Shown: piece after piece, positions 45,414-56,241 of the stretch | How the letters are laid out: each line of letters opens with the position of its first letter | How positions within the stretch are numbered: position 1 is the stretch's first letter | From: Azospirillum thermophilum | GTDB taxonomy: Bacteria > Pseudomonadota > Alphaproteobacteria > Azospirillales > Azospirillaceae | Reading direction: 5' to 3' | NCBI RefSeq assembly: GCF_003130795.1 | Contig: NZ_CP029358.1 | Span: 124,001 to 188,000 of the forward strand | DNA: 64,000 bases | Made by a program: the position numbers and the translations under genes | The notes under the pieces: model-generated | The model's database searches: none | Told to the model about the DNA's origin: nothing | Seen by the model: the letters and a program-made list of their open reading frames with translations, nothing else

Positions 45414-46100
45414 CTAAAGTCCGATGAAGGGCTGCATCAGCCGGCCCACCAGCCCGGTGAAGCGCAGCGGCGCATCGGTGGCGATCAGGCAGATGCAGTC
45501 CTCGTGGCTGTCGGCGATGGGCTGGTGCCGCGTCTCGCCGTCGGCCTCCGCGATGTCGCCCGCGGTATAGCGGCCGAGCTCGTCGGCATAGGAGCCGGCG
45601 AAGACCAGCGTCAGTTCCGTCCCGCCATGGCCGTGGTGGGGAAGCGCGGTGCCGGGCGCGATGCGCAGCAGATGCGCCGTGCCGCCGCGGGCGGTGCGCG
45701 GCATCACCTCGATGCGGCGGACGCCGGGCGCGATGCGCTGCCACCGCTGATCCATCCCCGGCCCGACATAGGAGCGCAGCGGCTCCGGCAGCAGCGCCGC
45801 GCCGTCCAGGGCGCGGCAGGGGTTGGGTGCGGGGAGGCGGACCGGGGCGGCATCCCGCCGCATCCAGCCGTCCGGCGCGTCGATGCGGGCGAAGAGGGAG
45901 GACAGCGCGTCCGCCGCCAGCGGCTCCGGCGCAAGCTCCTCCAGCAGGGCGCCGCCCAGCGCGTCGATCTCGGCGGCGGCGGCGCGGCAGAGCGGGCAGC
46001 GGGCGAGATGGGTCGCCACCGCCAGGGACAGGGCCTCGCCCAGGCTGCCGGACCCATAGGCGACCAGCAGGGCGTCGCTCGGATGGTGTTTCGGCATCAT
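45414..46100 (-). CDS. chrR: Zinc-binding anti-sigma factor ChrR
   Basis: This 228-residue anti-sigma factor of ECF sigma RpoE has an N-terminal zinc anti-sigma domain (AVATHLARCPLCRAAAAEI with the HxxxCxxC ligands near residues 31-38) and a C-terminal cupin (ALPHHGHGGTELTLVFAGSYADE with a second metal site). In Rhodobacter, singlet oxygen triggers ChrR loss and frees RpoE. It overlaps rpoE by 4 bases (ATGA). A second ATG at 46097 is possible. Confidence 0.94.
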   Translation of the reverse strand: MMPKHHPSDALLVAYGSGSLGEALSLAVATHLARCPLCRAAAAEIDALGGALLEELAPEPLAADALSSLFARIDAPDGWMRRDAAPVRLPAPNPCRALDGAALLPEPLRSYVGPGMDQRWQRIAPGVRRIEVMPRTARGGTAHLLRIAPGTALPHHGHGGTELTLVFAGSYADELGRYTAGDIAEADGETRHQPIADSHEDCICLIATDAPLRFTGLVGRLMQPFIGL

Positions 46101-46705
46101 GGGTCTTCATCTCCAAGAGCCTTGCGGATCTTGCCGAGGGCAAGGCGCAGGCGCGACTTCACGGTTCCAAGGGGCAGGTTCAGGCGTTCGGCGATCGCCG
46201 GATGGGCGAGGTCGGCGAAGAAGGACAGCCGCACCACCTCCGCCTGTTCCGGCGACAGGCCGGCGAGCGCCGCCCGCAGCCGGCGCGCCCGCTGTCCGGC
46301 GGCCAGCAGGGCGTCGGCCGGCGGCCGGTCGTCCTCCTGCTGCTCCAGCAGCTCGTCCGACACCTCCGGGTGACGCTCCCGGCGCAGGGCGTCGATGCGC
46401 AGGTTGCGGGCGATGGTGAAGACCCAGGTGGCCGGCTCCGCCCGGGCGGGGTCGTAGAGCCCGGCCTTGCGCCACACCGTCAGCATCGTCTCCTGCGCCA
46501 GATCCTCCGCCCGCGCCTGCGGCATCCCGAGCTTCAGCATGTAGGCCTTCACCCGCGGGGCGAAATGCCCGAACAGCAGGGCGAAGGCCTGCCGGTCGTG
46601 CCGCTCCGCCACCGCCCGCAGGGCGGCGGCCAGAGGCTCGACGGCCGCGCCGTCGGGCGGCGGGTCGGGCGGGGGCGTCACGGGTTGGGCTGCGGTCGCG
46701 AACAT
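46097..46705 (-). CDS. rpoE: ECF RNA polymerase sigma factor RpoE (ECF11, ChrR-linked)
   Basis: This 202-residue sigma factor has region 2 (FALLFGHFAPRVKAYMLKLG ... EDLAQETMLTVWRKAGLYDP) and region 4 (LSPEQAEVVRLSFFADLAHP ... LNLPLGTVKSRLRLALGKIR). The ChrR partner and the region 4 sequence place it in the singlet-oxygen response group. The ATG at 46705 is preceded by its own target-type promoter (46712-46739), pointing to positive autoregulation. The probable regulon lies 2-10 kb to the right. Confidence 0.94.
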   Translation of the reverse strand: MFATAAQPVTPPPDPPPDGAAVEPLAAALRAVAERHDRQAFALLFGHFAPRVKAYMLKLGMPQARAEDLAQETMLTVWRKAGLYDPARAEPATWVFTIARNLRIDALRRERHPEVSDELLEQQEDDRPPADALLAAGQRARRLRAALAGLSPEQAEVVRLSFFADLAHPAIAERLNLPLGTVKSRLRLALGKIRKALGDEDP

Positions 46706-46711
46706 GCCCCC

Positions 46712-46739
46712 TCTACGCAGGCTCCCGGCGATCGGATCA
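46712..46739 (-). promoter_or_regulatory. RpoE-type (ECF11) promoter of rpoE-chrR
   Basis: On the minus strand TGATCC (46739-46734) is followed after exactly 16 bases by CGTAGA (46717-46712), just before the rpoE start at 46705. The -35/-10 pair and its spacing recur before the two arms of the lipid-modification cluster. Confidence 0.85.
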
Positions 46740-46858
46740 CACGAACCTTTCGCAGACGATTTTTTGCGGCCCGGCCGGCCGGCCGGCGGGGAACCGGGCA
46801 TGCCGGACCGCGGTTGCCGTCCGGAGACCGACCGATCCGACCGGCAATGGAGACAGCC

Positions 46859-48613
46859 ATGGCGAGAACCGCTTCCGACATCCTGGTGGACGTGCTGGTG
46901 GACTGGGGGGTCGACACGGTCTTCGGCATTCCCGGCGACGGCATCAACGGCATCATGGAGGCGCTGCGCACGCGCAAGGACGAGATCCGCTTCGTCCAGG
47001 TCCGGCACGAGGAGGCCGCGGCCTTCGCCGCCTGCGGCTACGCCAAATTCACCGGCCGGCTCGGCGTCTGCCTCGCCACCTCCGGCCCCGGCGGCCTCCA
47101 TCTGCTGAACGGGCTCTACGACGCCAAGCTCGACCACCAGCCGGTGCTGGCGATCACCGGGCTGCAGTTCCACGACCTGGTCGGCACCTACACCCAGCAG
47201 GACGTGGAGCTCGACAAGGTCTTCCAGGACGTGGCGCTCTACAACCAGCGCATCATGGGCGCCGCCCATGTCCACAACATCACCACGCTGGCCTGCCGCA
47301 CCGCGCTCGCCCACCGCGGGGTCGCCCACATCACCATCCCCGTCGACCTGCAGGACCAGCCGGCGGGCGACGACCTGCGCGCGCCGCGCAACGTCAAGGG
47401 CCACAACACCAGCCTCTTCGCGCCGGAGCTGCCGGTTCCCTCGGAGGAGCAGGTGAAGCGGGCCGTCGGGATCCTGGACGCCGGGCAGCGCATCGTCATC
47501 CTCGCCGGCCAGGGGGCGCTGAAGGCGACCGACCAGCTCGAGCGGCTGGCCGACCGGCTGGGGGCGGTGATCGTCAAGGCGCTGCTGGGCAAGGCCGCGG
47601 TGCCCGACGACAGCCCCTTCACCACCGGGCAGGTCGGCCTGCTCGGCACCGCTCCCTCGCAGGAGGCGCTGGAGACCTGCGACACTCTGCTGATCGCCGG
47701 CTCCACCTTCCCCTACATCGAGTATTACCCGAAGCCGGGGCAGGCCCGCGCCATCCAGATCGACATCGACGCCGCGCGCATCGGGCTGCGCTATCCGGTG
47801 GAGGCCGGGCTGGTCGGCGACTGCCGCGTGGCGCTCGACATCCTGCTGGAGCGCGCCGCCCCGCATCCCGACCGCTCCTTCCTGGAGACGGCGCAGGCCG
47901 GCAAGGCCGGGTGGCTGAGGCTGATGGAGGAACGCGGCACCCGCCCCGACCTGCCGATGAAGCCGCAGGTGGTCGCCTGGGAACTCGGCAAGCGGCTGAC
48001 CGACACCGCCATCGTCGCCTGCGACAGCGGCACGATCGCGACCTGGTGGGCGCGGCAGATTCCGGCGCGGCGCGGGCAGATGCACTCGCTGTCCGGCAAC
48101 CTCGCCACCATGGCGCCCGGCCTGCCCTACGCCATCGCCGCGCAGCTCGCCCATCCCGACCGGCAGGTGGTCGCCTATGTCGGCGACGGCGGCTTCTCCA
48201 TGCTGATGGCCGACTTCGCCACGGCGGTGAAGTACGGGCTGCCGATCAAGGTGGTGATCAACAACAACCGGTCGCTGGGCCAGATCAAGTGGGAGCAGAT
48301 GGTCTTCCTCGGCAACCCGGAATATGGCTGCGACCTGCATCCCATCGACTTCGCCAGGGTGGCGGAGGCCTGCGGCGGCAAGGGCTTCACCATCACCGAT
48401 CCCAAGGACTGCGGCGCGGCGCTCGACGCCGCGCTCGCCCATCCCGGGCCGGTGGTGGTCGACTGCATCGTCGACGGCAACGAGCCGCCGATGCCGCCGA
48501 AGGTCCAGGCCAAGCAGGCCCTGCACCTGACCGAGGCGCTCGCCCGCGGCACGCCCGACGCCCTGAAGATCGCCGCGACGGTGTTCAGGAACCGGGCGCG
48601 GGAGATCATCTGA
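46859..48613 (+). CDS. Thiamine pyrophosphate-requiring enzyme (pyruvate oxidase/POX-like)
   Basis: This 584-residue cytosolic TPP enzyme has three domains. The N-terminal Pyr domain has the catalytic Glu in QVRHEEAAAFAACGYAKFTG, the middle domain begins near residue 195, and the C-terminal PP domain has YVGDGGFSMLMADFATAV ... VVINNNRSLGQIKWEQM (the GDG...NN cofactor motif). It most resembles pyruvate dehydrogenase (quinone)/oxidase-like proteins, but the reaction is not certain. A start at 46847 (METAMARTA) is also open; 46859 is preferred because GGAGA lies at the right distance. It is divergent from rpoE. Confidence 0.88.
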   Translation: MARTASDILVDVLVDWGVDTVFGIPGDGINGIMEALRTRKDEIRFVQVRHEEAAAFAACGYAKFTGRLGVCLATSGPGGLHLLNGLYDAKLDHQPVLAITGLQFHDLVGTYTQQDVELDKVFQDVALYNQRIMGAAHVHNITTLACRTALAHRGVAHITIPVDLQDQPAGDDLRAPRNVKGHNTSLFAPELPVPSEEQVKRAVGILDAGQRIVILAGQGALKATDQLERLADRLGAVIVKALLGKAAVPDDSPFTTGQVGLLGTAPSQEALETCDTLLIAGSTFPYIEYYPKPGQARAIQIDIDAARIGLRYPVEAGLVGDCRVALDILLERAAPHPDRSFLETAQAGKAGWLRLMEERGTRPDLPMKPQVVAWELGKRLTDTAIVACDSGTIATWWARQIPARRGQMHSLSGNLATMAPGLPYAIAAQLAHPDRQVVAYVGDGGFSMLMADFATAVKYGLPIKVVINNNRSLGQIKWEQMVFLGNPEYGCDLHPIDFARVAEACGGKGFTITDPKDCGAALDAALAHPGPVVVDCIVDGNEPPMPPKVQAKQALHLTEALARGTPDALKIAATVFRNRAREII

Positions 48614-48623
48614 CGATGCGGCG

Positions 48624-48646
48624 GAGGCATCGGCGTCCGGTGCCTC
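48624..48646 (+). terminator. Hairpin after the TPP enzyme gene
   Basis: GAGGCATCGG pairs with CCGGTGCCTC (one T-G wobble) around a CGT loop, 11 bases past the stop codon. It is followed by TTCC rather than a T-run. Confidence 0.6.
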
Positions 48647-48718
48647 TTCCTGGAAGAGCGTAAGAACATTTGTGGATTTTTCTTATCTGGCGTGGCGTCG
48701 GGGAAAAGGAGGCGCTGC

Positions 48719-48895
48719 ATGGCGACCATGACCGTTTCCCTTCCCTATCCGATGAAGGAATGGGTAGAGGCCCAGGTCCGCTCCGGTGAATACGCCAGTT
48801 CGAGCGACGATGTGCGCGATCTCATCCGGCGGGACCGTGAACAGAAGGACCGTGCTGACCGGTTCGGTCGTGGCGGGCATCCGGCCGCCCGGTGA
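48719..48895 (+). CDS. Orphan ParD/CopG-type antitoxin, shortened
   Basis: This 58-residue ribbon-helix-helix protein is the ParD type: MTVSLPYPMKEWVEAQVRSGEYASSSDDVRDLIRRD is the full DNA-binding and dimerisation part. The toxin-binding C-terminal arm is short and does not match (REQKDRADRFGRGGHPAAR), and no ParE toxin gene follows, so this is a solitary or decayed half of a toxin-antitoxin pair. A strong ribosome site (AAAAGGAGG, 48704-48712) precedes the ATG. The stretch just upstream (48660-48690) is AT-rich for this genome. Confidence 0.75.
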   Translation: MATMTVSLPYPMKEWVEAQVRSGEYASSSDDVRDLIRRDREQKDRADRFGRGGHPAAR

Positions 48896-48902
48896 AACAC
48901 GG

Positions 48903-48930
48903 TGATCCATATCCGAACGGGTAACGTAGA
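48903..48930 (+). promoter_or_regulatory. RpoE-type (ECF11) promoter of the rightward lipid-modification operon
   Basis: TGATCC (48903-48908) and CGTAGA (48925-48930) are 16 bases apart, the same pair and spacing as before rpoE. Transcription would begin about 48936, before the ATG at 48966, making the FAD oxidoreductase operon a direct RpoE target. Confidence 0.87.
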
Positions 48931-48965
48931 CGGGACTGTTGACTGGTCCCGCAGGGTTGCCCGCC

Positions 48966-50345
48966 ATGAGTGTCCTCCCCTTCCGCCCCTCCTCCGCCCC
49001 GTCCGACGGCGGTCCGCTGGAGATCGCCGTCATCGGCTCCGGCATCTCCGGCCTGTCGGCGGCCTGGCTGCTGTCCAAGGCCCACCGCGTCACGCTCTAC
49101 GAGAAGGAGGACCGGCCGGGCGGGCATGCCAACACCGTCGAGGCGGCAGGGAGCGGGCCGGTCGACACCGGCTTCATCGTCTATAACGAGCCCTGCTATC
49201 CCAACCTCGTCGCGCTGTTCGACCATCTCGGCGTGGCGACGCGGGCGACCGACATGTCCTTCTCCGCCTCGCTCGACGGCGGGCGGGTGGAGTATGCCGG
49301 CAGCACGCTCGGCACGCTGTTCGCGCAGAAGAGCAACCTGCTGCGCCCCCGCTTCTGGCGGATGCTGCGCGACCTGCTGCGCTTCTACCGCGAGGCGCCG
49401 CGCCTGCTGAGCGATCCGGCGGCGGACGGGCTGACGCTCGGTCAGGTACTGGACCGCGGCGGCTATTCCGACGCCTTCGTGCGCGACCATCTGCTGCCGA
49501 TGGCCGCCGCCATCTGGTCGAGCCCGGTCGAGACGATGCGCGACCATCCCGCCGCCGCCTTCGTCCGCTTCTGCGAGAATCACGGCCTGCTGAAGATCAC
49601 CGGCCGCCCGGTCTGGCGCACGGTCGAGGGCGGCAGCCGCGCCTACGTCTCGCGCATCCTGCAGGACATGGGCGGCGCCTTGCGGCTCAACACGGCGGTG
49701 GAGGCCGTGACGCGCGAGCCGGGCCGGGTACTGGTGCGCGACCGCAAGGGCGACGTGCGCAGCTTCGACCATGTCGTGCTGGCGACCCATGCCGACCAGG
49801 CGCTCGCCCTGCTCGACGATCCCGGCAGCGACGAGACGGCGCTGCTCGGCGCCTTCGCCTACGAGCGCAACATCGCCATCCTGCACGGCGACGCCTCGCT
49901 GATGCCGCGCCGCCGCAAGACCTGGTCGAGCTGGAACTACCTGTCGCAGCGCGGCGAGGACGGCAGCGACGCCGTCTGCGTCACCTACTGGATGAACCGG
50001 CTGCAGGGGTTCCTGCCGGCGGAGCGCGACCTGTTCGTCACGCTGAACCCGGTGCGCCCGCCGCGCGACGGCAGCATCCTGCGCAGCTTCCTCTACGACC
50101 ACCCGATCTTCGGCATGGGGGCGCTCGCCGCCCAGAAGAGGCTGTGGAGCCTGCAGGGGCAGCGCAACACCTGGTTCGCCGGCAGCTATTTCGGCGCCGG
50201 CTTCCACGAGGACGGGCTGCAGGCCGGGCTCGCCGCGGCGGAGGCGCTGGGCGGGGTCAGGCGCCCCTGGCGGGTGTCGGACGAATCCGGCCGCATCCAC
50301 ATCGGCCCGGCCCCGGCGGTCGCCCGTCCGATGGAGGCCGCGTGA
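48966..50345 (+). CDS. FAD-dependent amine oxidase/desaturase-like oxidoreductase
   Basis: This 459-residue flavoprotein has an N-terminal Rossmann FAD motif (IAVIGSGISGLSAAWLLSKA with the following YEKEDRPGGHANTVE) and the flavin-containing amine oxidase fold to the end (GSYFGAGFHEDGLQAGLAAA). It belongs to the RpoE-regulated lipid gene set, linked in Rhodobacter (RSP1087-1091 region) to furan fatty acid formation, where a flavoprotein acts as desaturase; the same role here is inference. The frame opens at 48939, but the promoter at 48903-48930 and the ATG favour 48966. It overlaps the next gene. Confidence 0.9.
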   Translation: MSVLPFRPSSAPSDGGPLEIAVIGSGISGLSAAWLLSKAHRVTLYEKEDRPGGHANTVEAAGSGPVDTGFIVYNEPCYPNLVALFDHLGVATRATDMSFSASLDGGRVEYAGSTLGTLFAQKSNLLRPRFWRMLRDLLRFYREAPRLLSDPAADGLTLGQVLDRGGYSDAFVRDHLLPMAAAIWSSPVETMRDHPAAAFVRFCENHGLLKITGRPVWRTVEGGSRAYVSRILQDMGGALRLNTAVEAVTREPGRVLVRDRKGDVRSFDHVVLATHADQALALLDDPGSDETALLGAFAYERNIAILHGDASLMPRRRKTWSSWNYLSQRGEDGSDAVCVTYWMNRLQGFLPAERDLFVTLNPVRPPRDGSILRSFLYDHPIFGMGALAAQKRLWSLQGQRNTWFAGSYFGAGFHEDGLQAGLAAAEALGGVRRPWRVSDESGRIHIGPAPAVARPMEAA

Positions 50346-51193
50346 TGGCCGACCCCTCCCTCCCCGACTTCGCCTCCGCGCTTTATGTCGGCACGGTGGT
50401 GCATCGCCGGCTGAAGCCGGTGCGGCACCGCCTGTCCTACCGGGTGTTCAGCCTGCTGGCCGACCTGGAGGAACTGCCGGAGCTCGACCGCCGCCTGCGG
50501 CTGTTCTCGCACAACCGCGCCGGGCTGCTGGGGTTCCGCGACCGCGACCACGGGCCGGGCGACGGGCGCCCCCTGCGGGCCTGGGCCGACGCGCAGCTCG
50601 ACCGCGCGGGAATCGAGGGCGGCGGGCCGGTGCGCATCCTGTGCTTCCCGCGCGTGCTCGGCTTCGTCTTCAACCCGCTCAGCGTCTGGTTCTGCCACCG
50701 GCGCGACGGCAGCCTGTCGGCGATCCTGCACGAGGTCACCAACACCTTCGGGCAGCGCCACAGCTACCTGATCCCCGCCGCGGTCGGACCGGACGGGCTG
50801 GTGCGGCAGAGCTGCGACAAGCGCTTCTACGTCTCCCCCTTCATGGCGATGGAGACCGCCTACCAGTTCCGCATCCGGCCGCCCGGCGAGCATCTGGCTG
50901 TCGCCATCCACCAGACCGACGCCGAGGGGGCGGTGCTGCATGCTTCGCTCGCCGCCCGCCGGGTGGACCTCAGCGACGCCGCCCTGCTGCGCGCCTGGGC
51001 GCGCCACCCGCTGATGACCGCCAAGGTGGTCGCCGGGATCCACTGGGAGGCGCTGCATCTCTGGCGCAAGGGGCTGAGGCTCCATCCCCGCCCCGAGCCG
51101 CCCGCCGAGCCGGTGACCGTCGTCCCGACGGCCGCGCCAGCCGCCCTCTCCTCCGCGACGCCGTCCTCTTCCGCCAGGGAATTCGCCGCATGA
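50345..51193 (+). CDS. DUF1365 family protein
   Basis: This 282-residue protein of unknown reaction belongs to DUF1365, nearly always found between an FAD oxidoreductase and a cyclopropane-synthase-like gene. Conserved blocks are VGTVVHRRLKPVRHRLSYRV, FPRVLGFVFNPLSVWFCHR, LHEVTNTFGQRHSYL and KRFYVSPFMAMETAYQFRIR. The C-terminal 30 residues are a low-complexity Pro/Ala/Ser tail. The ATG at 50345 overlaps the previous stop, and the 3' end overlaps the next start (ATGA). A GTG at 50342 could also serve. Confidence 0.9.
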   Translation: MADPSLPDFASALYVGTVVHRRLKPVRHRLSYRVFSLLADLEELPELDRRLRLFSHNRAGLLGFRDRDHGPGDGRPLRAWADAQLDRAGIEGGGPVRILCFPRVLGFVFNPLSVWFCHRRDGSLSAILHEVTNTFGQRHSYLIPAAVGPDGLVRQSCDKRFYVSPFMAMETAYQFRIRPPGEHLAVAIHQTDAEGAVLHASLAARRVDLSDAALLRAWARHPLMTAKVVAGIHWEALHLWRKGLRLHPRPEPPAEPVTVVPTAAPAALSSATPSSSAREFAA

Positions 51194-52409
51194 CCGATTT
51201 CGCCGCGTCCACCACCCGCCCGCCGCGCTGGTGGAGCCTGCTGCTGCCCGGCCGCAATCCGGCGACGGAAGCCCTGCTGCGTCTCGCCTCCCGCATCCGC
51301 CACGGCCGGCTGACGCTGCGGCTGCCCGACGGCCGCTCCGTCAGCTTCGGCGACGGGCGCAGCGGGCCGGTGGCCGACCTGATCCTCGACCATCCGGCCG
51401 CCGCGCGGCGCCTGCTGCTGGGCGGCGACATCGGCTTTGCCGAAGCCTATGGCGACGGGCTGTGGCGCACCGGCGACCTGCCCGCGCTGATCGAGCTCGC
51501 CATCCGCAACGAGGCGGAGCTGGGACGGGGAATCACCGGCTCCGCCGCGGCCGGCTGGCTGAACCGCCTGTTCCACCGCAGCCGGGCCAACAGCCGGCGC
51601 GGCAGCCGGCGCAACATCGCCGCCCATTACGACCTCGGCAACGCCTTCTACCGGCTGTGGCTGGACGAGGGGATGACCTATTCCTCCGCCCTCTACGAGC
51701 GGCCGGACCAGAGGCTGGAGGAGGCGCAGGACGCCAAGATCCGCCGCGTCGGCGAGCTGCTGGACCTGTCGCCCGGCATGCGGGTGCTGGAGATCGGCTG
51801 CGGCTGGGGCGGTCTGGCCGACCATTTGACCCGCGACCGCGGTGCCTGGCTGGTCGGCCTCACCCTCTCCACCGAGCAGCTCGCCCACGCCACGGCCCGG
51901 CTGGGGGAACGGGCGGAGCTGCGCCTGCAGGACTACCGCGACGTGACCGGCAGCTTCGACCGCATCGCCTCCATCGAGATGATCGAGGCGGTGGGCGAGG
52001 AGCATTGGCCGCGCTACTTCGCCACGCTGCGCGACCGTCTGGCGCCCGGCGGGCCGCCGTCGTCCAGGCGATCACCATTGCCGACGAGCGTTTCCCCGGC
52101 TACCGCAGCGGCTGCGACTTCATCCAGCGCCACATCTTCCCCGGCGGCATGCTGCCCTGCCCGACGGCGTTGCGCGAGCAGGCGGCACAGGCCGGGCTGC
52201 AGGTCGACCATGTGGAGACCTTCGGTCCGTCCTACGCCCTGACCTGCGCCGAATGGCGCAGGCGTTTCCAGGCCGCCTGGCCGCGGATCACCGCGCTGGG
52301 CTTCGACGAGCGGTTCCGCCGCCTGTGGGACTATTACCTGGCCTATTGCGAGGCCGGCTTCCGCAGCGGGACGATCGACGTCGGGCTCTGGCGCTTCCGC
52401 AAGCCGTGA
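51190..52409 (+). CDS. Cyclopropane-fatty-acid synthase-like SAM methyltransferase, frameshifted
   Basis: This is a CFA-type methyltransferase acting on phospholipid acyl chains. The motif NIAAHYDLGNAFYRLWLDEGMTYSSAL is followed by the SAM site MRVLEIGCGWGGLADHL and IEMIEAVGEEHWPRYF. After LRDRLAPGG the frame breaks: one base is missing near 52050-52053, and the natural C-terminus (AITIADERFPGYRSGCDFIQ ... GTIDVGLWRFRKP) continues in the next frame to 52409. In the known RpoE/ChrR regulon the homologous methylase makes the methylated precursor of furan fatty acids. Intact function depends on whether the missing base is real. Confidence 0.88.
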
Positions 52410-52419
52410 GGGCGCCGGC

Positions 52420-53757
52420 ATGACCCCCGGCCGGCTCGCGCTCTACGCCCTGCCGGCCCTGCCGCTCGCCCTGCCGACGATCCCGGTCGCGGTCCTGCTG
52501 CCGGCCCATTACGCCGACACGCTGGGCCTCGGCCTCGGGGCGACCGCGGCGGCGCTGGGTGCCGCCCGGCTGCTCGACGTGCTGAGCGATCCGCTGGTGG
52601 GGATGTTGAGCGACCGCGGCGGGCGGTTCGGGCGGCGCAAGCCCTGGATCCTTGCCGGCGCCCTGATCGCCGGCATCGCGCTGCTCAACCTGTTCAGCCC
52701 GCCCGCCGGGGCCGGGGCGGCGCACCTCTTCGGCTGGAGCCTCGCGCTCTATCTCGGCTGGACGATGGTGCAGGTGCCCTATCAGGCCTGGGGGGCGGAA
52801 CTCGCCGCCGGCTACCACGAGCGCGCCCGCATCGCCGGCGCGCGGGAGGCCGCCGGGGTGGTCGGGCTGCTGCTGGCGGGCGGCGTGCCGGCGCTCGCCG
52901 CGTTCCTCGGCTGGCCGGCGACGGCCGGGCTGGCGGCACTCGCCTGGGCGACGGTGGCGCTGGGCGCCCCGGCCGTCGCCGGGCTGCTGTGGGGCGTGCG
53001 CGAGGCGGCCCCGCGGGAGGCGGAGCATGCCGCACCGGAACTGCCGCATTCTGCGGTGTGGCGCGGCCTGCTGGGCAACCGGCCCTTCCTGCGGCTGCTG
53101 GCCGCCTGGACGGTCAACGGGCTCGCCACCGGCGTGCCGGCGACGCTCTTCCCCTTCTTCGTCGGGTCGGTCCTGGCGCTGGGGGAGACGGCCAAGGGGC
53201 TGTTCCTGCTGCTCTACTTCCTGTCGGCGGTGGCGGCGGTGCCGCTCTGGCTGCGGCTGGCGCGGCGGCTGGAGAAGCACCGGACCTGGTGCCTCGCCAT
53301 GATCCTCGCCTGCGCCGCCTTCCTCTGGGTGCCGCTGCTCGGGCCGGGGGACGGGGCGGCCTTCGCGGTCATCTGCCTCGTCACCGGGGCGGCGCTCGGC
53401 GCCGACCTCGCCCTGCCGCCGGCCATGCAGGCCGACGTGGTGGACTATGGCGCGCTGAAGGAGCGTGGCCGCCCGCGCGCCGGCCTCTATTTCGCCCTGT
53501 GGACGATGGCGACCAAGCTGGCGCTCGCCGCCGCCGTGGCGCTGGCGCTGCCGGCGGTCGGGCTGTTCGGCTTCGACCCGCAGGCGGACGTGCAGCTGCC
53601 GGGCGCCCTCGCCGCGCTTGCGGTGATCTATGCCGGGCTGCCGACCGTAGCCAAGGTCGCGGCGGTCGCGCTGGTGTGGGGCCATCCGCTGACCCGCCGG
53701 CGCCATGCCGCGATCCGCCGCCGCCTCGACAAGCACCGGAGCCCGGAGCCGCCATGA
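52420..53757 (+). CDS. MFS transporter (GPH sugar:cation symporter-like)
   Basis: This 445-residue inner-membrane protein has 12 predicted helices. The loop after helix 2 has the GPH/MFS motif LLDVLSDPLVGMLSDRGGRF followed by RRKPWILAG, and LGWTMVQVPYQAWGAELA lies in helix 4 and its loop. A carrier of this type is always part of the RpoE-ChrR lipid cluster, but its substrate is unknown; a lipid-like or lysophospholipid substrate fits the context better than a sugar (inference). Its stop overlaps the next start (ATGA). Confidence 0.85.
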   Translation: MTPGRLALYALPALPLALPTIPVAVLLPAHYADTLGLGLGATAAALGAARLLDVLSDPLVGMLSDRGGRFGRRKPWILAGALIAGIALLNLFSPPAGAGAAHLFGWSLALYLGWTMVQVPYQAWGAELAAGYHERARIAGAREAAGVVGLLLAGGVPALAAFLGWPATAGLAALAWATVALGAPAVAGLLWGVREAAPREAEHAAPELPHSAVWRGLLGNRPFLRLLAAWTVNGLATGVPATLFPFFVGSVLALGETAKGLFLLLYFLSAVAAVPLWLRLARRLEKHRTWCLAMILACAAFLWVPLLGPGDGAAFAVICLVTGAALGADLALPPAMQADVVDYGALKERGRPRAGLYFALWTMATKLALAAAVALALPAVGLFGFDPQADVQLPGALAALAVIYAGLPTVAKVAAVALVWGHPLTRRRHAAIRRRLDKHRSPEPP

Positions 53758-54374
53758 GCCCGCGACGCCTGCATCGTTTCCTTCTCCCGCTGATCCTCCT
53801 GTTCGCCCTCAACGGATGTGCCGCCATGGACCCCAAGGACTTCGCAGGCCGCAGGCCGGAGTTGCGGATCGAGGAGTATTTCGCCGGCCGCACCAATGCC
53901 TGGGGCATCTTCGAGGACCGCTTCGGCACGCTGCGGCGCGAGTTCACCGTCACCATCGACGGGCGCTGGGACGGGCGCGAACTGGTGCTGGACGAACAGT
54001 TCCTCTATTCGGACGGCGAGACGGACCGGCGCGTCTGGCGCATCACCAGGACGGGCGAGCACGACTACGAGGGCAGCGCCGGCGACGTGATCGGCACCGC
54101 CACGGGCAAAGCCTACGGCAACGCGCTGAACTGGAGCTACGACATGGACCTGAAGGTCGGCGACGGCACCTGGCGGGTGCGGTTCGACGACTGGATGTTC
54201 CTCCAGCCCGGCGGGGTGCTGATCAACCGTGCCAACGTCTATCGCTGGGGCGTGTGGATCGGCACCGTCACCCTGTTCTTCCAGCCGGAGGCCGGCGCCA
54301 CCCTCAACCGGGCGGAAAGCGGCCGAGCCGCCGCCGGATCGCCCGCAGCGGCGCCCCCAGCAGGGGGAGCCTGA
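53754..54374 (+). CDS. DUF3833 family lipoprotein
   Basis: This 206-residue exported lipoprotein has the signal LHRFLLPLILLFALNGC with a lipobox cysteine near residue 22. The DUF3833 body has AGRTNAWGIFEDRFGTLRRE, DEQFLYSDGETDRRVWRI and GNALNWSYDMDLKVGDGTW. The function is unknown; it belongs to the conserved RpoE-ChrR cluster. Its last 71 bases overlap the convergent NTF2-like gene on the other strand, so the C-terminal Ala/Pro tail is encoded by shared DNA. Confidence 0.88.
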   Translation: MSPRRLHRFLLPLILLFALNGCAAMDPKDFAGRRPELRIEEYFAGRTNAWGIFEDRFGTLRREFTVTIDGRWDGRELVLDEQFLYSDGETDRRVWRITRTGEHDYEGSAGDVIGTATGKAYGNALNWSYDMDLKVGDGTWRVRFDDWMFLQPGGVLINRANVYRWGVWIGTVTLFFQPEAGATLNRAESGRAAAGSPAAAPPAGGA

Positions 54375-54753
54375 GGTAGATCTGCTCCCCCGCGTCCCAG
54401 TGGTCGACATGCTCCGACACCCGGCCGTCGGCCGCCTGCCGGACCTCGCTGGTGCCGATGGTGTCCACCCGGCCGACCACCGGCAGCGTAGCGGCGAAGC
54501 GCCAGCGGAGGATCGCCAGATCCTCGGCGAGCAGCCGGTGCGTGACGGTGAAGCGCAGGTCGCGGCAGCCCTCCAGCGTGTGGGCGAGCACCGCGCGCAG
54601 CTCGTCCCGGCCGCGGCAGTCGTTGAAGGGGTCGCGGAAACGCACCTCGGCGGTGGTCAGCTCCGGCAGCCGGTCGAGGGCGGCATGGTCCAGCGTCTCG
54701 AAGAAGCGGACCCAGCCGTCGAGCCCCTGCACGCGGTTCTCATCGATGGTCAT
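54304..54753 (-). CDS. NTF2/SnoaL-like protein
   Basis: This 149-residue protein has the cone-shaped NTF2/SnoaL fold: VRFFETLDHAALDRLPELTTAEVRFRDPF, then LRFTVTHRLLAEDLAILRWRF and GTSEVRQAADGRVSEHVDHWD. No catalytic assignment is possible; such proteins act as small cyclases, isomerases or binding proteins. It is translationally coupled to the upstream SDR (ATGA overlap) and overlaps the end of the DUF3833 gene tail to tail. Confidence 0.87.
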   Translation of the reverse strand: MTIDENRVQGLDGWVRFFETLDHAALDRLPELTTAEVRFRDPFNDCRGRDELRAVLAHTLEGCRDLRFTVTHRLLAEDLAILRWRFAATLPVVGRVDTIGTSEVRQAADGRVSEHVDHWDAGEQIYLRLPLLGAPLRAIRRRLGRFPPG

Positions 54754-55507
54754 GTGCCGGTCACCTTGCGCACCAGGGGGAAATAGAGCCGGTAGGGCAG
54801 CAGCCGGGCCGCCTTGACCGCGCGGGCGAAGCGGCGGGGAAGGTGATCTCGAACCGGTCGGTCTTCAACCCGTCCACCAGCGCCCTCGCCGCCTCCTCCA
54901 CCGGCATCAGGTCCGGCATCGGGAAGGGGTTGCGGTCGGTCAGCGGTGTCGCGACGAATCCCGGATTGACCAGATGCAGCCGGATCCCGGCGCGGTCGCA
55001 CTCCGGCTTCAGCGCCTCGCACAGGTTGATCAGCGCCGCCTTGGTCGGGCCGTAGGCCGCGGCGGTCGGCAGGCCGCGATAGCCGGCGACCGAGGAGACG
55101 ACGGCGATCCGCCCCGCCCCGCGCGCCTTGAAGCGCGGCAGCAGGGCGGCCAGCCCGTGGACCACGCCCATGTAGTTGACCTCCATCAGCGTCCGCGCCG
55201 TCTCCGCCGAGAAATCGTCGAGCCCCATCGGGATGTGCGTCGCGGCGTTCAGGATGGCGAGGTCCAGCGGGCCGAGCCGGTCTTCCGCGGCGGCGACGGC
55301 GGCCTCCACCGCCGCCGCGTCGGTGACGTCCAGCGGCAGCGGCAGGATGCGGCGGGCGGAGGTGGCGGCGACCGCCTGCAGCCCCAGGGTGGAACGGGCG
55401 GAGGCGGCGACCGTCAGCCCCTCCCCGGCCAGCCGCAGGGTCACCGCGCGGCCGATGCCGCTGCTGGCCCCGGTGACCCAGGCCGCCTTGCCGAGAGGGC
55501 CGCTCAT
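54750..55507 (-). CDS. Short-chain dehydrogenase, frameshifted near the 3' end
   Basis: This SDR has AAWVTGASSGIGRAVTLRLA, the NNAG-equivalent AILNAATHIPMG, the catalytic VSSVAGYRGLPTAAAYGPTK (Ser, Tyr, Lys) and HLVNPGFVATPLTDRN. After FEITFP one C is missing in the run at 54836-54839; adding it continues into RRFARAVKAARLLPYRLYFP and a stop at 54750 that overlaps the next start. Without it the protein ends in a different tail. It is part of the RpoE-linked cluster, and its substrate is unknown. Confidence 0.87.
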
Positions 55508-56178
55508 GGCGACCGTCCGGCGATCTGCGGCCCGGCGTCGCAGCGGCGGCAGACATAGTCGATGGTCGAGCCGTCGCGGGCGGCGAAGCGCAGCCCGACC
55601 CAGGAGCCGGCGTCGTCGTACCAGACGGTGGCCTCCAGGTCGCCGCGATATGAATAGCGCGTGGCGCTGCGCCGCCCGTCGCCGGCCGGCACCTCCTCCC
55701 GCCCCTCGCGCGTCATGCGGACCTCGTTGATCTTGCCGGTGATGGTGTTCAGCACCTGCCGCGCCCCGATCACCGCCGGATTCCAGTGGTCGGTCGGCAT
55801 CAGTCCGGCGGGCGCGCCCACCCGTCCGTCCGCCCCTTCGACCAGCAGGGAGCCGCCGTCGGCGCGGGCGCCGACCCGGGTCACCGTGCCGTCGTCGTCG
55901 GTGACGGTCTGGAGCGACTGCAGCCGGCCTCCCGCCCACAGGCTGTCCGACCGGTAGTCGAAGCGGTAGACGGGGATGCCGAGCAGCCGCACGGTGATCT
56001 CGCTGTGCGCCTCCACCCGCAGCCGCTCGCCGTCGGGCTGCAGCGTCACGCGGTGGGTTCCGACCGGCGTGCCGTTGCGTCGGATCTCGAACAGATAGTC
56101 GGCGGCTTGTGCCTGTCCGCCCGGCAGGGCCAGCACGACACCCAGGGTGCCGACTGTCAGGAAGTTGCGCGCGCGCAT
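55504..56178 (-). CDS. Exported DUF3108/DUF6134-type protein
   Basis: This 224-residue secreted protein has a Sec signal (MRARNFLTVGTLGVVLALPG, cleavage near AQA) and a beta-rich body (YLFEIRRNGTPVGTHRVTLQ, YRFDYRSDSLWAGGRLQSLQ, DHWNPAVIGARQVLNTITG). The fold resembles DUF3108/DUF6134 proteins of the periplasm; the reaction is unknown. The start at 56178 gives the signal peptide, with an in-frame ATG at 56199 as alternative. It heads the leftward arm of the RpoE cluster and its stop overlaps the SDR start. Confidence 0.8.
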   Translation of the reverse strand: MRARNFLTVGTLGVVLALPGGQAQAADYLFEIRRNGTPVGTHRVTLQPDGERLRVEAHSEITVRLLGIPVYRFDYRSDSLWAGGRLQSLQTVTDDDGTVTRVGARADGGSLLVEGADGRVGAPAGLMPTDHWNPAVIGARQVLNTITGKINEVRMTREGREEVPAGDGRRSATRYSYRGDLEATVWYDDAGSWVGLRFAARDGSTIDYVCRRCDAGPQIAGRSP

Positions 56179-56213
56179 CGGTCGGGGCCTCCGTTCCAAG
56201 GTCCGGGACCCCC

Positions 56214-56241
56214 GGTACGCGCGGAAAGGGCCGGCGGATCA
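56214..56241 (-). promoter_or_regulatory. RpoE-type (ECF11) promoter of the leftward lipid-cluster arm
   Basis: On the minus strand TGATCC (56241-56236) and CGTACC (56219-56214) are 16 bases apart, matching the promoters before rpoE and the FAD oxidoreductase. It lies 36 bases before the exported-protein start and overlaps a hairpin (56228-56252). Confidence 0.83.

Follow-up and report, generated by a model that had tools for sequence, protein, structure and literature searches.

The window studied here, a stretch of 64,000 nucleotides of Azospirillum thermophilum, covers bases 124001-188000 of a 405,625-base contig (C7) in a genome of 6.78 Mb and nine contigs. By its sequence it carries the known singlet oxygen regulon of the extracytoplasmic function (ECF) sigma factor RpoE, of group ECF11, and its anti-sigma factor ChrR, together with a complete set of genes for the synthesis of furan fatty acids. 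The rpoE-chrR mRNA is most likely leaderless, and two envelope proteins of the cluster, DUF3833 and DUF6134, might belong to a lipid-handling arm of the response; we give this explanation, taken as a whole, a probability of about 85%. The regulon itself being known, the finding draws its value from the predicted and conserved leaderless start of rpoE and from the modelled folds of two unassigned envelope proteins, while the conserved three-promoter layout extends the described singlet oxygen response to this Azospirillum.

The RpoE-ChrR locus and its predicted furan fatty acid genes

The genes and predicted promoters concerned are the following.

45414..46100, minus strand: chrR, zinc anti-sigma factor (Cupin_7, TIGR02451; eight metal ligands kept)
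46097..46705, minus strand: rpoE, ECF11 sigma factor with sigma regions 2 and 4 (Pfam; predicted leaderless start at 46705)
46714..46739, minus strand: predicted ECF11 promoter TGATCC-N16-CGTA of rpoE-chrR (exact pattern, conserved spacing)
48903..48928, plus strand: predicted ECF11 promoter of the ufaDOM-MFS-DUF3833 operon (exact pattern, conservation)
48966..50345, plus strand: ufaD-like FAD oxidoreductase, predicted fatty acyl desaturase (flavin amine-oxidase-type family, gene order)
50345..51193, plus strand: ufaO-like DUF1365 protein, predicted furan-ring monooxygenase (family, gene order)
51190..52409, plus strand: ufaM-like methylase of the cyclopropane fatty acid synthase (CFA) family (Pfam; frame broken near 52053, one base missing)
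52420..53757, plus strand: major facilitator superfamily (MFS) transporter of the MFS_2/GPH type (Pfam)
53754..54374, plus strand: DUF3833 protein with a lipobox (Pfam; modelled as a ten-stranded calycin-like barrel)
54304..54753, minus strand: NTF2/SnoaL-like protein (Pfam; its 3' end overlaps DUF3833 by 71 bases)
54750..55507, minus strand: short-chain dehydrogenase (SDR) (Pfam; frame broken near the 3' end, one base missing)
55504..56178, minus strand: exported DUF6134 protein (Pfam; modelled as an EipB/LolA-like beta structure)
56216..56241, minus strand: predicted ECF11 promoter of the DUF6134-SDR-NTF2 operon (exact pattern, conservation)

An earlier note on this DNA had recognized an ECF11 RpoE-ChrR pair and two operons converging on one gene block, and both proposals agree with the sequence. 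Pfam and TIGR02451 identify an ECF sigma factor next to a ChrR-family anti-sigma factor, the stop of rpoE and the start of chrR overlapping as ATGA. ChrR scores 209.6 bits against TIGR02451 (cut-off 124.5), and it displays with the expected spacing the zinc site H-x24-H-x3-C-x2-C (H6, H31, C35, C38) and the cupin site H-x-H-x3-E-x29-H (H156, H158, E162, H192). An ECF11 promoter is predicted, by sequence and conservation, ahead of the sigma factor gene itself, and homologues of ufaD, ufaO and ufaM stand together by Pfam family and order; orthology to the proteins of Rhodobacter sphaeroides is based on family, order and promoter, not on direct alignment. The exported protein, first described as of DUF3108/6134 type, is DUF6134 by Pfam. 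The core regulon was reportedly defined by Dufour in 2008.

In the excerpts available of PMC7380195, UfaM, UfaD (RSP1091, the counterpart of the FAD oxidoreductase, a desaturase) and UfaO (RSP1090, a DUF1365 protein) suffice to make a furan fatty acid, UfaO (RSP1090, RPA2570) forming the furan ring with dioxygen; in Rhodopseudomonas palustris, ufaD, ufaO and ufaM are RPA2571, RPA2570 and RPA2569, respectively. The link between the cluster and furan fatty acids, already suspected in the earlier note, is therefore supported by sequence, while its statement that DUF1365 has no assigned reaction must be withdrawn. Because the reactions of UfaO and UfaD are already assigned, the block is also less under-described than when it was singled out as the most promising pathway of its kind in the window; DUF3833 and the NTF2-like protein do remain without an assigned reaction, and so do the exported DUF6134 protein, the SDR and the MFS protein.

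How the system would operate here is extrapolated from R. sphaeroides and R. palustris. In these bacteria, oxidants cause the breakdown of ChrR and free RpoE, and UfaM, UfaD and UfaO convert a membrane acyl chain into a furan fatty acid. UfaD and UfaO are in turn needed for full activation of RpoE by singlet oxygen: proteolysis of ChrR under singlet oxygen requires RSP1090, and activation of RpoE needs both RSP1090 and RSP1091 (PMC3818230, in excerpt), a loop likewise described in PMC6852236. In the window, RpoE would fire the three promoters and, presumably, those of rpoH, a second rpoE-chrR pair, a glutathione peroxidase gene and a DUF2256 gene. Transcript starts, sigma factor dependence and lipid products are, for this organism, predictions, which tells against the explanation as a whole.

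Three predicted promoters with a fixed spacing

An exact scan of the window for TGATCC-N16-CGTA recovers the three sites proposed in the earlier note, before rpoE, the FAD oxidoreductase operon and the exported-protein operon, and no further ones, with 0.01 expected and none of 100 shuffles reaching three. A promoter common to the three transcription units is thus supported by sequence; the sites, once called identical, are so in both boxes and in their 16-base spacing, while the 16 spacer bases differ. The distance from CGTA to the start codon is 8 bases for rpoE (ATG); it is 37 for ufaD (ATG, with in-frame TTGs at 10 and 28) and 37 for the exported DUF6134 gene (ATG, with a TTG at 16).

The genome scan that had been suggested shows spacer 16 to be enriched, with 13 sites as compared with 138 over spacers 4-34 together (about 4 for each other spacing; Poisson P 0.0004), yet chance could account for roughly one in three of the 13, so that not every match should be read as a promoter. 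Spacing controls were used in place of a reversed-pattern control, which was set aside as unfair because the reversed pattern contains CTAG; this tetranucleotide is rare in many bacteria. A chance origin of the three sites of the window is unlikely, because the same sites recur at orthologous genes. Conservation was counted in the best 80 of 224 loci found by scanning genome contigs for the DUF1365 protein, with, as denominators, the loci where a given gene was found with enough flank. The exact motif with spacer 16 lies upstream of rpoE in 58/66, of ufaD in 51/78 and of the NTF2-SDR(-DUF6134) operon in 25/39; for spacers 8-15 and 17-25, at most two motifs were seen at any spacing in any gene set.

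The layout itself, chrR-rpoE followed by ufaD-ufaO-ufaM-(MFS)-DUF3833 facing NTF2-SDR-(DUF6134), recurs in Azospirillum, Thalassospira and Insolitispirillum, and also in Nisaea, where rpoE-chrR is not within the stretch. Of the 80 loci, 39 contain a DUF6134-type gene, which in Acetobacteraceae and in part of the Burkholderiales occupies another position within the neighbourhood (one case confirmed as DUF6134). In six of eight Azospirillum loci devoid of such a gene, the SDR gene directly follows the third promoter; no SDR gene was found in the other two (L057, L058). Azospirillum genomes have a UfaO match in 24 of 45 cases (one only at E 1e-5) and ChrR in all 45.

A predicted leaderless start for rpoE

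The short distance between CGTA and the ATG of rpoE is a conserved feature. It was followed in 223 loci, comprising the window, 80 UfaO loci, 80 further loci, L135, L150 and 60 chrR-centred regions picked outside the loci already in hand, a few genomes being represented twice. Of these, 83 lack an rpoE-chrR pair, 11 lack the motif and 129 have it, 116 of them exactly. An in-frame ATG is found at position 8 or 9 in 80 of the 116 exact cases, and an in-frame ATG, GTG or TTG at 8-10 in 91; when identical 30-base leaders are merged, these figures become 73/109 and 84/109. The chrR-centred set taken separately has 40 exact cases, with ATG at 8-9 in 20 and a start codon at 8-10 in 28 (17 of 25 families), and motifs with one mismatch show ATG at 8 or 9 in 6/13. 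The Betaproteobacterial loci L113, L117, L118 and L119 also have their ATG at 8 or 9. In an earlier set of loci, partly overlapping this survey, a start codon was present at 8-9 in 65/79 rpoE genes (63 ATG), as compared with 0/69 for ufaD and 6/36 (2 ATG) for DUF6134.

Transcription in bacteria typically starts at a purine with a pyrimidine just before it. Among the 73 distinct leaders with ATG at 8 or 9, 70 have C or T immediately ahead of that ATG (2 G, 1 N), while the pyrimidine fraction is 0.33-0.48 at the other positions of the gap and 0.53-0.59 before the starts of ufaD, DUF6134, NTF2 and ufaO (P 1e-15 against 0.56). Any of five Shine-Dalgarno-like tetranucleotides occurs in just 17 of the 73 gaps. 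Judged by position and base preference only, rpoE has its start codon at the point, past the -10 box, where transcription should begin.

The same ATG could be no start codon at all, translation beginning at a downstream in-frame codon preceded by a normal leader. There is a precedent for this view in Bradyrhizobium ecfF (group 16), where the mapped transcript start overlapped the annotated ATG and a more distal codon was argued for (excerpt of PMC3420878), and the genes would allow it, as only one of the 80 loci lacks another in-frame start codon before sigma region 2, and 22 lack another in-frame ATG. We nevertheless regard it as unlikely: an ATG at 8 or 9, sought in any frame, is in frame with rpoE in 80/80 cases where chance would give one third, the pyrimidine preference just described is not matched at the starts of the other genes, and the stretch before the next start codon shows an excess of third-position substitutions (36/83 in 7 disjoint pairs, P 0.036), a modest test because pairs were compared without gaps.

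Several observations nonetheless speak against a leaderless start. No in-frame ATG is found at 8 or 9 in 36 of the 116 exact-motif genes, and the second rpoE of the genome has its in-frame ATGs at 3 and 12 instead; other in-frame start codons exist further down in nearly all loci, and the pyrimidine-purine signal is weak at the ufaD and DUF6134/SDR promoters.

On balance, the first base of the rpoE-chrR mRNA of the window is most likely the A of the rpoE AUG, and the mRNA would therefore be devoid of a leader to which ribosomes could bind. In that case, most RpoE would come from transcripts initiated at the rpoE promoter itself, chrR being coupled through the ATGA overlap. It also seems to us likely that the absence of a leader is a designed feature of ECF11 sigma factor genes in Alpha- and Betaproteobacteria, the -10 box being kept at 8-9 bases from the AUG so that transcription would begin on the start codon. 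Leaderless mRNAs do occur in this class, since 171 such transcripts, all started with AUG, were mapped in Sinorhizobium meliloti (PMC3616915, in excerpt), and a literature search gave none pairing "leaderless" with ChrR among the matches listed. Were the proposal true, it would provide a new rule for the wiring of an ECF sigma factor feedback loop: the positive loop would be coupled to the choice of the transcription start, could favour translation under stress, and would leave its target operons with ordinary leaders, unlike rpoE.

One-base breaks in the reading frames of ufaM and SDR

In this assembly, ufaM and the SDR gene are broken in frame, by one base each, near 52053 and at about 54850, respectively, which weighs on the idea of a working pathway. 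A real break in ufaM would lead one to expect no furan fatty acid in this strain, and the cluster could then be seen as a decaying copy, with ufaM and the SDR gene as pseudogenes and furan lipids no longer made by the strain. The breaks in both genes are what suggests this view; several features make it improbable. Both breaks lie in or beside runs of G or C, similarity to the proteins of relatives continues on both sides of each, the remaining genes of the cluster read open, and no frame break was seen in the relatives compared (0/7 for ufaM, 0/6 for the SDR gene), a pattern that looks typical of long-read error. The breaks are thus probably errors of sequencing or assembly; the two genes were left uncorrected, and their parts were used separately in searches. 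We also considered that ufaM might undergo programmed frameshifting, and abandoned this view because it is seen in none of the relatives compared.

A possible lipid-handling arm in the envelope

DUF3833, DUF6134 and the MFS protein may constitute an envelope arm that binds or moves modified or oxidized lipids. The model of DUF3833 is lipocalin-like, a ten-stranded calycin-like barrel whose best match is a designed barrel, and that of DUF6134 has an EipB/LolA-like fold, similar to 6ntr (EipB) by fold only. DUF6134, its sole Pfam match up to E 0.1, places the latter protein outside the EipB family (DUF1849). Searches of the Protein Data Bank (PDB) for sequence relatives of DUF3833 or DUF6134 gave chance-level matches only, and literature searches on both families showed nothing relevant by title. 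Haem binding of the nitrobindin type by DUF3833 was rejected, its alignment having no conserved haem-ligand histidine. The C-terminus of many DUF3833 proteins reads ...AAE or closely similar (alignment A2).

The raw co-occurrence counts look strong, with 64/5/4/17 for MFS and lipobox, 52/17/2/19 for MFS and DUF6134, and 52/15/2/21 for NTF2 and DUF6134. As averages over a quick UfaD+UfaO tree, the supported independent pairs amount to 3.2 same, 0.0 opposite and 3.8 without change for MFS and lipobox (median P 0.25), 4.0/0.1/2.9 for MFS and DUF6134 (P 0.125) and 4.6/0.1/1.3 for NTF2 and DUF6134 (P 0.0625). Lipoboxes were counted with a third detector, two earlier ones having missed clear lipoboxes, that of the window included. 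Duplicate loci (L132, L133, L134, L165, L171, L232), contig ends (L067, L101), loci where either flank of DUF3833 was shorter than 4 kb, and loci that lacked ufaO or had at most one of ufaD/O/M were dropped; discordant rows were kept (L186, L192, L197, L207, L216, L221, L225, L231, L233).

It has almost an even chance that DUF3833, the MFS protein and DUF6134 are unrelated to lipids and have only the stress regulon in common. In R. sphaeroides, deleting RSP1087, RSP1088 or RSP1089 one at a time caused no detectable change in the fatty acid profile (excerpt of PMC7380195). DUF6134 resembles in its fold the enzyme VioE and an axonemal protein as well; a common fold does not show function, and because these proteins and the designed barrel match as well, the folds are no proof of lipid binding. 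The joint gain and loss of DUF6134, MFS and the DUF3833 lipobox, not significant on the tree, is suggestive only. All this counts against the proposed arm; on the other side, the operon is conserved over many genera and the matched fold classes include lipid-binding proteins. A lipid-handling arm of DUF3833 and DUF6134 is thus possible, and the fold matches provide a concrete lipid-binding hypothesis for both proteins inside a lipid-modifying stress operon.

Comparison with described systems

In R. sphaeroides, the same rpoE-chrR pair has as its neighbour an operon driven by RpoE that encodes UfaD (RSP1091) and UfaO (RSP1090) (excerpts of PMC7380195, PMC3818230 and PMC6852236), the RSP1091-1087 operon also holding an SDR and a lipoprotein-type gene (names from PMC5507510), and the metal-ligand spacing of ChrR is identical. 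The two systems differ in that the CFA-type methylase (RSP2144) is at a separate locus, whereas ufaM of the window is inside the operon, and in that the SDR gene belongs to the ufa operon there and here to the convergent operon headed by DUF6134. R. palustris has the same order ufaD-ufaO-ufaM (RPA2571-2569), an MFS/DUF3833/DUF6134 arm not being described in the available excerpt of PMC7380195. For Pseudomonas syringae PSPTO_1043/1042, PMC5507510 gives, in excerpt, the same consensus TGATCC-N16-CGTA, derived from chromatin immunoprecipitation (ChIP), and a core regulon that likewise includes an SDR, a lipoprotein, an RSP1090 orthologue, an FAD oxidase and a CFA-like protein; the gene arrangement differs, a photolyase heading the operon and the lipoprotein gene lying apart from it, with no motif of its own. 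The rpoE2-chrR pair of Shewanella oneidensis has in common with the window the motif, the overlap of the two genes and a periplasmic glutathione peroxidase target; its transcript was mapped to start with an A that follows the -10 box (excerpt of PMC4336711). Brucella EipB (DUF1849, PDB 6ntr) belongs to another Pfam family than DUF6134, with 8% identity and another gene neighbourhood (PMC10787603, in excerpt).

Other candidate targets and neighbouring genes

The downstream gene was inspected for the 10 sites with spacer 16 outside the window. Plausible targets are a second ECF11 rpoE-chrR pair (C2:2436659), rpoH (C2:2455242), a glutathione peroxidase gene (C2:2413100) and a DUF2256 gene (54 aa, C3:296748) with its ATG 20 bases past the site. 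Two sites precede genes of methyl-accepting chemotaxis protein type (C2:1092505, confirmed by Pfam; C5:439653, by eye), another precedes a folE-like gene (C2:66709, by eye), and three further ones are C2:1839210, C2:2047773 and C6:378903. A site with spacer 17 (C7:200083) lies ahead of an MsrP-like molybdopterin oxidoreductase (Pfam Oxidored_molyb). The targets of Shewanella RpoE2 include a periplasmic glutathione peroxidase and a photolyase (excerpt of PMC4336711); here, ECF11 control of photolyase was rejected, the genome's only DPRP photolyase being convergent to the DUF2256 promoter and not behind it (L244:7749-9402). The site C2:2047773 (L007) stands 7 bases ahead of the ATG of a 494-residue open reading frame (ORF), which may likewise have a leaderless start.

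Elsewhere in the family, in other genera (L136, L138, L140, L142, L145, L147), genes for DUF6134, SDR and NTF2-like proteins lie in one neighbourhood, where neither ufaD/O/M nor an exact motif was found; in L136, L140 and L142, where the ORFs were read, a photolyase-type gene lies between DUF6134 and the SDR gene. Rhizobial loci (L061, L062, L064, L072, L079, L081 and others) have, adjoining chrR, a second CFA-type methylase gene, about 30% similar, whose product might carry out a second methylation as FufM does.

Between rpoE and ufaD, the window holds a 58-residue ORF (48719-48895), ParD-antitoxin-like by eye and without Pfam match at E 0.01, and a thiamine-pyrophosphate enzyme gene (46859-48613). 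The rpoE and ufaD domains are merely 216-426 bases apart in 11 other Azospirillum loci, and similar DNA (86-89%) is present on other Azospirillum plasmids.

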